A DNA stretch of 64,000 nucleotides. Source: Faecalibacterium hattorii. GTDB lineage: Bacteria > Bacillota > Clostridia > Oscillospirales > Ruminococcaceae. The DNA lies in contig NZ_PRLC01000012.1 in the NCBI RefSeq assembly GCF_003287455.1, positions 1 to 64,000 on the forward strand. The letters are read 5' to 3'. A program made the position numbers and the translations under genes. The notes beneath the pieces are model-generated. The model saw nothing but the letters and a program-made list of their open reading frames with translations. It was not told the origin of the DNA and made no database searches. Below are positions 1 through 52,418 of the stretch, piece after piece (the stretch's first letter is position 1; every line of letters starts with the position of its first letter).

Positions 1-16
1 CTGAACCAGTCATATG

Positions 17-132
<116 letters not shown>

Positions 133-138
133 TTGATC

Positions 139-19950: not shown

Positions 19951-20296
19951 CGGCTGCAAAAGGCTTGTGCGATACAAGTCGTGCAGGCCAGCGATATGCG
20001 TAGATGCGGGAGGTTGTCATCCGGCGATAGCTGTGATGGGTTATTTCCGCGGAGTATGTCCGATCTTAGAACCGGGCGAAAGAATTACTGACAGCGATGG
20101 AATACGTTCCCTCGGCAGGGCGACCTGCGAAACGGGCGGAACCAATGTTCGGATTTGATTTGCTAATATTTATCCGGGAGAACTGCCGAGCGGTTCACCG
20201 GTTTTTCTAGTGCCAAATCGAGGAACACCCGGAACTGTGTAGAGCAATTTATCGGCTCGCCTAGGGCAAAATCAATTTTTTCAGGAGGCGTAAGCA
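19951..20296 (+). promoter_or_regulatory. Long S10-operon leader with internal terminator-like hairpin
   Basis: About 345 nt of untranslated, G/C-structured leader before rpsJ. At 20174-20206 a hairpin forms (CCGG-GAAC arms 20174-20183 with 20093+100 region GTTC at 20193-20196 and CCGG at 20198-20201) followed by five T, the layout of an intrinsic terminator. In Escherichia coli the S10 leader is the site of L4-mediated attenuation; a comparable role here is inferred. No convincing open reading frame lies inside. Confidence 0.6.
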
Positions 20297-47673: not shown

Positions 47674-47690
47674 AATGAACTGCGTTCATT
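47674..47690. promoter_or_regulatory. TetR-type operator over the tetR promoter
   Basis: Perfect 17-bp inverted repeat AATGAAC-TGC-GTTCATT, overlapping the -10 box at 47688-47693. Confidence 0.75.
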
Positions 47691-47716
47691 ATAGACGGAA
47701 CACAACGTTCTGTCAA
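47688..47716 (-). promoter_or_regulatory. Promoter of tetR
   Basis: Consensus on the minus strand: TTGACA, 17-bp spacer, TATAAT. With such a strong core, repression by the overlapping operator is probably needed. Confidence 0.85.
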
Positions 47717-51929: not shown

Positions 51930-51958
51930 TTGTAATTCGTCGAATGATATGCTACAAT
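51930..51958 (+). promoter_or_regulatory. Promoter of the small hydrophobic peptide transcript
   Basis: TTGTAA (51930-51935), 17-bp spacer, TACAAT (51953-51958). Confidence 0.7.
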
Positions 51959-51964
51959 AAAAAT

Positions 51965-52136
51965 GCCGCCGAAAAGGCGGTGGATAAGGTGCTGTGTCGA
52001 AAACACAGGCGGCTGCTCTTACTGGTAGGACGCTCGTTTCATGAAAAATCATGGAAGGAACGTTATACCGAGGGGCGAGCTTATTTTTGAAGTCGAACCC
52101 CGGACTCGTGGTATAACGGGAAAGGGGGAATGTCGG
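51965..52136 (+). promoter_or_regulatory. Highly structured 172-nt leader of the small peptide gene
   Basis: Three successive hairpins are visible: CCGCC/GGCGG (51966-51980), CTGTGT/ACACAG (51992-52008), and a 58-nt hairpin (52061-52118) with 9-bp base CGTTATACC/GGTATAACG and nested GGGG/CCCC, CGA/TCG and CTT/AAG pairs. The last ends just before the GGGGG ribosome site, so structure could control translation. Confidence 0.7.
52031..52043 (+). repeat. 13-bp inverted repeat, left arm
   Basis: CGCTCGTTTCATG, perfect inverted match to 52329-52341. The two arms flank the peptide gene and its terminator. Confidence 0.7.
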
Positions 52137-52280
52137 ATGACATTGTCTGAATTGCTGGCGCTGCTGACCCTTCTGGTCGCAGCAGCCGCGCTGATGGTCG
52201 AAGTGGCAAAAGCCGGGTTCGCCATCGCGTGGAAAGTCGCACACGACAGATCAAACGATGACAACAAGAAAAGCAAGTAA
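52137..52280 (+). CDS. 47-aa hydrophobic peptide, candidate type I toxin
   Basis: 47 aa: one membrane helix (about 4-23, LSELLALLTLLVAAAAL), an amphipathic stretch, then a charged tail rich in D, N and K. This is the plan of small membrane toxins of the TxpA/holin-like type, though no sequence family is certain. GGGGG lies 8 bases before ATG 52137; an in-frame start at 52041 has no site and lies in the folded leader. The stop codon is inside the 5' arm of a terminator, and an opposite promoter at 52391-52418 would produce RNA complementary to its 3' end. Confidence 0.6.
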   Translation: MTLSELLALLTLLVAAAALMVEVAKAGFAIAWKVAHDRSNDDNKKSK

Positions 52281-52320
52281 CCGCCTCAGCTTCCTACACT
52301 GACGGTTGCTTGCTTTCTTT
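52270..52320. terminator. Two-way terminator shared by peptide mRNA and antisense RNA
   Basis: Thirteen-base-pair stem AAGCAAGTAACCG (52271-52283) with CGGTTGCTTGCTT (52303-52315), one mismatch-type pair, 19-nt loop, T-rich tails on both strands. Confidence 0.75.
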
Positions 52321-52328
52321 GTGCATAA

Positions 52329-52341
52329 CATGAAACGAGCG
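52329..52341 (-). repeat. 13-bp inverted repeat, right arm
   Basis: CATGAAACGAGCG on the plus strand, complement of 52031-52043, located in the 5' half of the predicted antisense RNA. Confidence 0.7.
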
Positions 52342-52390
52342 ACTGCCGGTAACGGGTAGCCGTTTGCCGACCAGCGCCTTTTCTATTTCC

Positions 52391-52418
52391 ATTATATCCG
52401 TTTTGGACGTGTTGTCAA
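52391..52418 (-). promoter_or_regulatory. Consensus promoter facing the small peptide gene
   Basis: On the minus strand perfect TTGACA (52418-52413), 16-bp spacer, perfect TATAAT (52396-52391). It lies past the dnaJ-like stop and has no coding gene downstream. Confidence 0.8.

Follow-up and report, generated by a model that had tools for sequence, protein, structure and literature searches.

A candidate type I toxin-antitoxin-like locus from a family of paralogues in Faecalibacterium, with a predicted leader switch and a copied 5' module

Type I toxins are small hydrophobic peptides, usually of less than 60 aa and with a charged C-terminus (PMC6563280). In par of pAD1 (Fst / RNA I-RNA II) from Enterococcus, a U-turn is located in the toxin RNA and a second contact between the RNAs is made via DNA direct repeats, which render the two RNAs complementary (PMC7472228). 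The antitoxin of BsrG/SR4 from Bacillus subtilis overlaps the toxin mRNA at the 3' end, and its distant binding changes the sequestration of the Shine-Dalgarno (SD) sequence (PMC4147584). For AapA3/IsoA3 of Helicobacter pylori, several anti-SD segments have been described that form mutually exclusive, metastable hairpins hiding the SD (PMC6733600). The comparisons drawn below refer to excerpts of these papers; TimP/TimR (PMC11228461) was a further system considered. In a literature search with most subscription journals outside its scope, no paper describing a type I toxin-antitoxin system in Faecalibacterium or the Ruminococcaceae was found among the entries listed, and a search by topic (inverted repeat and anti-SD) likewise listed none on such a system.

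The locus reported here lies in a stretch of 64,000 nucleotides (the window) of a 2.79 Mb Faecalibacterium assembly, and its parts are collected in Table 1. With a probability of roughly 0.78 we read it as a type I toxin-antitoxin-like locus, one of many paralogues, which combines a leader switch with a copied module. The original prediction had likened it to txpA/ratA or fst modules. Its layout is nearest to par/fst, although the repeats of the locus are inverted and not direct. Like par, as far as the excerpts go, the locus has convergent promoters, a bidirectional terminator and a one-helix peptide with a W before the charged tail (seen here by eye in many copies). A loop-loop start with a U-turn motif and a second contact near the ribosome site, both known from par, are predicted for it, and its SD may likewise be hidden in cis. 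The DNA direct repeats DRa/DRb of par have no counterpart: a repeat search (seed 7, length >= 9) returned no direct repeat between the leader and the antisense 5' end, and the matching segments are inverted. As direct repeats are a defining feature of par/fst, the locus was not filed in that class. Direct repeats yield complementary RNAs in par, whereas inverted repeats mean that the RNAs of this locus carry the same sequence. The U-turn also differs in its place, since it lies in the toxin RNA of par while here YUNR was present in the antisense loop region of all 42 loci compared (a count made without a shuffled control) and on the sense side of 28/42. TTGG was found in the antisense terminator loop region of 29/42 loci, compared to 18% of shuffles.

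In common with BsrG/SR4, the antitoxin would overlap at the 3' end, by about 60 nt here versus about 120 nt there; a copied 5' module is present here and was not found in the available part of the BsrG/SR4 description. Mutually exclusive SD-hiding pairings are predicted as in AapA3. There, a 5'-3' interaction is trimmed at the 3' end for unlocking, whereas the segments all lie in the leader here, and, unlike in the excerpted account of AapA3/IsoA3, the antisense RNA of this locus repeats the first leader segment. What goes beyond the original prediction, judged from the sequence comparisons, is a 5' module common to antisense RNA and toxin leader, together with a co-evolving four-segment leader.

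Table 1. Predicted features of the locus and the basis of their assignment.
Feature	Positions	Strand	Basis
Toxin mRNA promoter	51930-51958	+	TTGTAA-17-TACAAT, TG 5' of -10, 9/12 consensus bases
Antisense RNA promoter	52391-52418	-	TTGACA-16-TATAAT, 12/12 consensus bases
Leader 5' module, same sense as antisense RNA 5' end	51983-52043	+	Local alignment with 52383-52329; inverted repeat
Leader segment 1, C/U-rich tail of leader module	52014-52029	+	Aligned leaders, duplex energies
Leader segment 2, G-rich arm 5' of U run	52063-52077	+	Aligned leaders, duplex energies
Leader segment 3, C-rich arm 3' of U run, anti-SD	52091-52116	+	Aligned leaders, duplex energies
Leader segment 4, Shine-Dalgarno region	52117-52133	+	Aligned leaders, duplex energies
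Peptide gene, presumed toxin, 47 aa, single helix	52137-52280	+	ATG start, SD AAAGGGGG
Bidirectional terminator common to both RNAs	52264-52322	both	Inverted repeat, stop codon in 5' arm
Antisense RNA, presumed antitoxin	52253-52386	-	Model match 66.8 bits; window sequence itself in model
Antisense RNA 5' module, same sense as leader module	52329-52383	-	Local alignment

The arrangement drawn by the original prediction was recovered in each of its parts. The sense promoter is near-consensus and the facing promoter has a perfect TTGACA and TATAAT; by consensus-base scoring the sense promoter is the weaker one in the window and at most other loci. The exact pattern TTGACA-16..18-TATAAT occurred twice in the 64 kb window versus 0.01 times expected from shuffles. 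The other perfect promoter (TTGACA-17-TATAAT, 47688-47716, minus strand) gave no match to the antisense RNA model. Given an mRNA start near 51965, the leader has a predicted length of about 172 nt and contains the three hairpins foreseen, one from repeat arms (52061-52069 / 52110-52118) and two in the predicted fold. The open reading frame starts at 52137, and its stop codon TAA (52278-52280) falls inside the 5' arm of the two-way terminator, whose arms (52264-52283 / 52303-52322) are 85% complementary, separated by 19 nt and accompanied by T-rich stretches on both sides; this repeat was absent from a simple terminator scan limited to loops of 3-8. The antisense RNA is predicted to span about 52384 to 52262 on the minus strand. 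Transcription of both RNAs is putative. Not noted in the original prediction, a perfect inverted repeat of 13 nt (52031-52043 / 52329-52341) belongs to a longer similarity between the 5' ends of both RNAs. Ordinary Rfam elements elsewhere in the window are an S10-Clostridia ribosomal protein leader (19993-20079) and a 5S rRNA (17-133, plus strand).

The window peptide, described before as a single helix with a charged tail, has a best 19-residue hydropathy of 2.51 (from residue 6) and thus matches the small hydrophobic peptides with a charged C-terminus that are typical of type I toxins. With a profile built from 18 peptides, 51 matches were obtained in 14/31 Faecalibacterium genomes, and the window genome itself harbors further peptide copies and antisense relics. 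The pooled pN/pS was 0.25 (156 pairs), with pN lower than pS in 155/156 pairs, values that come from non-independent pairs and in which pN is lowered because the pairs were chosen at >= 60% amino-acid identity.

The original prediction had not recognised the peptide or the leader as a described family, and in database comparisons no fitting Rfam, NCBIfam or Pfam entry was obtained above its cut-off. The window peptide had no match to Pfam Hol_Tox (PF16935), which was matched by 3/18 of its relatives with a best E of 2.8. Weak matches to Hol_Tox came from sister loci that share the RNA layout and carry MVTYSDLIQTGIL-type peptides (L111, E 0.0016, score 18.7; L112, E 0.003, score 17.8, the latter from a query copy with one residue wrong), and both scores lie below the cut-off of 23.3, so that these peptides do not qualify as members. 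NCBIfam includes an Fst model. No Fst-named NCBIfam or Pfam match was found among the 18 peptide members at E 10; their weak NCBIfam matches were scattered across families and were rejected, as were scattered weak PHROG matches (best E 0.00092, to a family matched by 3/18 members). Among phages and plasmids no match to the window peptide was detected at E 0.1, and of 28 pattern-matching stretches in viral contigs none encoded a peptide relative. At the gathering score, Rfam gave two matches in the window, neither of them at the locus. Matches from a relaxed Rfam search of the window and 12 loci (SAM_alpha, AaHKsRNA41, SpF25 and others) were below the gathering scores and were discarded, the sole match above threshold at the 12 loci being a tRNA in the sequence flanking L065.

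A covariance model of the antisense RNA was built from 42 sequences. Matches at E 0.01 or better were present in 24/31 Faecalibacterium genomes with up to 18 per genome, numbers that include three genomes (G014, G024, G027) with matches only between E 0.001 and 0.01, possibly by chance, as well as some weak matches on the strand opposite to true ones; since many of the 42 model sequences come from the same genomes, the matches are not independent. Each of the 51 peptide matches found within the genus lies opposite an antisense RNA model match, and the arrangement that was to speak against a toxin-antitoxin module, a conserved peptide without the opposing promoter, was not encountered among them. 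The search for further copies with an opposing promoter, proposed at the same time, yielded at least 11/12 consensus bases in 47/52 parsed loci and 9 in the other five (54 loci were entered, two lacked a start, and 4/52 are from other genera). An antisense RNA gene that overlaps the toxin mRNA and is conserved with it, as expected of type I systems, was thus found at the level of predicted RNAs.

The layout was also detected at L047, L078, L085 and L086 in one other genus of the family, at L050 and L087 in a second (L047 and L050 were among the model sequences), and at L094, which belongs to a different family of the same order (38.1 bits, E 2.5e-08). Outside the genus it is rare: at E 0.001, 13/297 family genomes and 5/395 order genomes had matches, counts that include the own genus and unconfirmed matches. 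Weak protein matches in one other genus of the family (L079, L080, L082, L088) came without a convincing antisense-model match and were not counted. At L081, in another genus of the family, the antisense model fails (12.4 bits); by eye, both RNAs start alike there (ACAGAGAAG) and have CCUC-type anti-SD stretches. Loci found only by the antisense RNA encode other peptides, including MVTYSDLIQTGIL types, and therefore one RNA control layout appears to serve several peptide types. Four antisense-model matches lie within about 4 kb in one genome (G012:C1:297153-301062), among them two neighbouring copies with near-identical peptides. By eye, a same-looking gene, which we take to be deoxycytidylate-deaminase-like, adjoins copies in different genomes (after L002, L034 and L053; before L036, L037, L040, L062 and L066), and it may mark a hot spot for copies.

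Decay was found on the toxin side. The matches listed at >= 45 bits amount to at least 123 antisense loci from 20 genomes; the peptide gene is kept in 95 of them, 26 are without leader, ribosome site or reading frame, and two are cut by contig ends (L109, L161). A rule-based split had given 95 loci with and 28 without an ORF, and by hand L019 was then re-sorted as intact, L127 as broken, and L109 and L161 were set aside. Two of the broken loci (L126, L003) keep an open frame and have lost leader and ribosome site. In four others (L138, L143, L150, L157), a deletion that begins, by eye, just 3' of the sense -10 extends as far as the last codons. The antisense promoter retains at least 10/12 bases in 21/26 broken loci among the matches listed; of the five weak ones, that of L173 sits at a contig end, where it cannot be judged. 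Tandem antisense copies were seen at L057 and L134, the second unit retaining only later or C-terminal peptide codons.

A search with the antisense model favours finding loci with a broken toxin. The peptide search was able to find the converse case, a peptide without an antisense RNA, and did so in 0/51 matches. Loss of the toxin side with the antisense RNA kept (26/123 among the matches listed) is, as a comparative pattern, the asymmetry expected of a toxin and its antidote. A conserved peptide whose toxicity is presumed could also be a small membrane protein that serves normal physiology and is under ordinary antisense control in cis, but the one-sided loss, the antisense RNA kept at every peptide match, the multiple copies and the patchy spread make this unlikely. 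Type I control of a probably toxic peptide is thus the reading favoured by the comparative evidence, which consists of sequences throughout.

Beyond the original prediction, toxin leader and antisense RNA were found to start with the same module in the same sense, matched locus by locus. In 42 of the 52 loci (near-identical copies L008, L016, L029, L040, L048, L049 and L062, the broken L006 and L052, and L014 with its altered 3' frame were left out), the mean similarity was 44.8 for cognate and 30.4 for non-cognate modules, 26.7 for the reverse-complement control and 22.5 for shuffled sequences, and 0/10,000 permutations reached the observed sum. The two 5' ends have therefore evolved together within loci, which may have occurred either by selection or by recombination between the inverted repeats. 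Stems are predicted at the 5' ends of both RNAs, and the module tail 3' of the hairpin also tracks locus by locus. In the window, the antisense tail ACCCGUUACCGG differs from the common CUCCUU.

The aligned leaders consist of a C/U-rich segment 1, a G-rich segment 2, a U run, a C-rich segment 3 and the SD (segment 4). When cognate duplex energies were compared with permuted ones (n=42), strong effects were obtained for 1:2 (z -5.5), 2:3 (z -9.0) and 3:4 (z -5.9), with 0/5,000 permutations for each, and no effect for the control pairs 1:3 (z +0.4) and 2:4 (z +1.5); as the loci are related, these z-values overstate independence. A larger set (93/94 loci placed, 83 non-redundant, 65 used) gave -7.5, -8.5 and -10.7, with controls at 0.0 and +0.85, the value for 1:2 being inflated by an overlap of the two segments at some of its loci. 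One pair between SD and segment 3 was C-G in 18, U-A in 16 and U-G in 3 of the 42 loci and broken or a gap in 5. Since 1:2 and 3:4 exclude 2:3, the SD could be hidden in one state of the leader and freed in the other, and a cis switch over the ribosome site is a rather likely prediction.

Folding gave a mixed picture. RNAalifold (alignment A5) returned 3:4 in the consensus fold and did not return 2:3. In folds of the leader plus 30 nt, module-SD pairing had a mean of 0.41, and removal of the first 62 nt raised the unpaired share of the SD from 0.11 to 0.23. In whole-mRNA folds, the SD pairs mostly within the leader (mean 0.34) or with the ORF (0.27), pairing with the module being rare (0.08); no uniform state was obtained, and the unpaired share went from 0.24 to 0.22 without the first 62 nt; freeing of the SD by 5' trimming was thus unsupported in these folds.

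An insertion of small mobile elements was considered as well, with the 5' modules as terminal inverted repeats and the copies and internal deletions as relics of transposition. The copy numbers per genome, the cluster of four matches in G012 and the internal deletions would be in line with it. The repeats, however, start close to where transcription is predicted to begin and lie between the two promoters, not at the outer ends, the decay is one-sided, and the segments co-evolve as RNA pairs, which together render this explanation improbable, even more so than that of a physiological peptide.

Under the toxin-antitoxin reading, an mRNA of roughly 360 nt would encode the one-helix membrane peptide, and a convergent RNA of roughly 120 nt would overlap its last ~60 nt via the common terminator, where a loop-loop interaction would make the first contact. 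The leader would be closed by 1:2 and 3:4 pairing, which hides the ribosome site, and open by 2:3 pairing, which frees it. Because the antisense RNA starts with a copy of the first leader module, its 5' end may act in trans as segment 1 or as an anti-SD and keep the mRNA closed. Pairing of the RNAs at the 3' end of the mRNA, as originally predicted, agrees with the overlap and is highly probable, yet it gives an incomplete description of two RNAs that also have a common 5' module.

For the last step, action of the copied module in trans is possible, at somewhat less than even odds. It competes on similar terms with an antitoxin that acts only via the 3' overlap, through terminator kissing and RNase III decay, the 5' modules being stabilising hairpins; this alternative retains the toxin-antitoxin core. 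Consistent with it are the ~60-nt overlap, the predicted stems at both 5' ends, and an antisense tail without clear locus-specific pairing, be it to segment 4 (z -0.9, n=42; -0.2, n=65) or to segment 2 (z -1.4, n=42; -1.7, n=65, 233/5,000 permutations). A generic cap hairpin, on the other hand, would not need module identity of the extent seen locus by locus, which includes the tail after the hairpin. The weak locus-specificity of the antisense tail would fit either cross-action between paralogues or the absence of any action. Locus-specific pairing of the module tail straight to the SD found little support (1:4 z -1.4, n=42; -2.4, n=65), and duplex energies over ~60 nt were too coarse (antisense 5' end versus SD z -0.8, leader 5' end versus SD z -2.5).

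Taken together, the layout, its conservation, the identity of the modules, the co-evolution of the segments and the one-sided decay, all traced by comparison, describe a large natural set of at least 123 loci in 20 genomes of a type I-like system in a human gut genus. They also offer the testable idea of an antisense RNA that imitates its target's own leader, beyond complementing it alone. More tentatively, the antitoxin may act in trans as a copy of the mRNA's own lock, its first ~55 nt duplicating the leader module and keeping the switch closed as segment 1, with the 3' overlap serving only as an anchor. Antisense genes that outlive their toxins raise the question of whether they are orphan RNA antitoxins protecting against other copies. 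With an antisense tail that lacks clear locus specificity, intact antisense RNAs and the 26 orphans among the matches listed could, if this holds true, guard several paralogous toxins at once and would then form a genus-wide RNA anti-addiction network.
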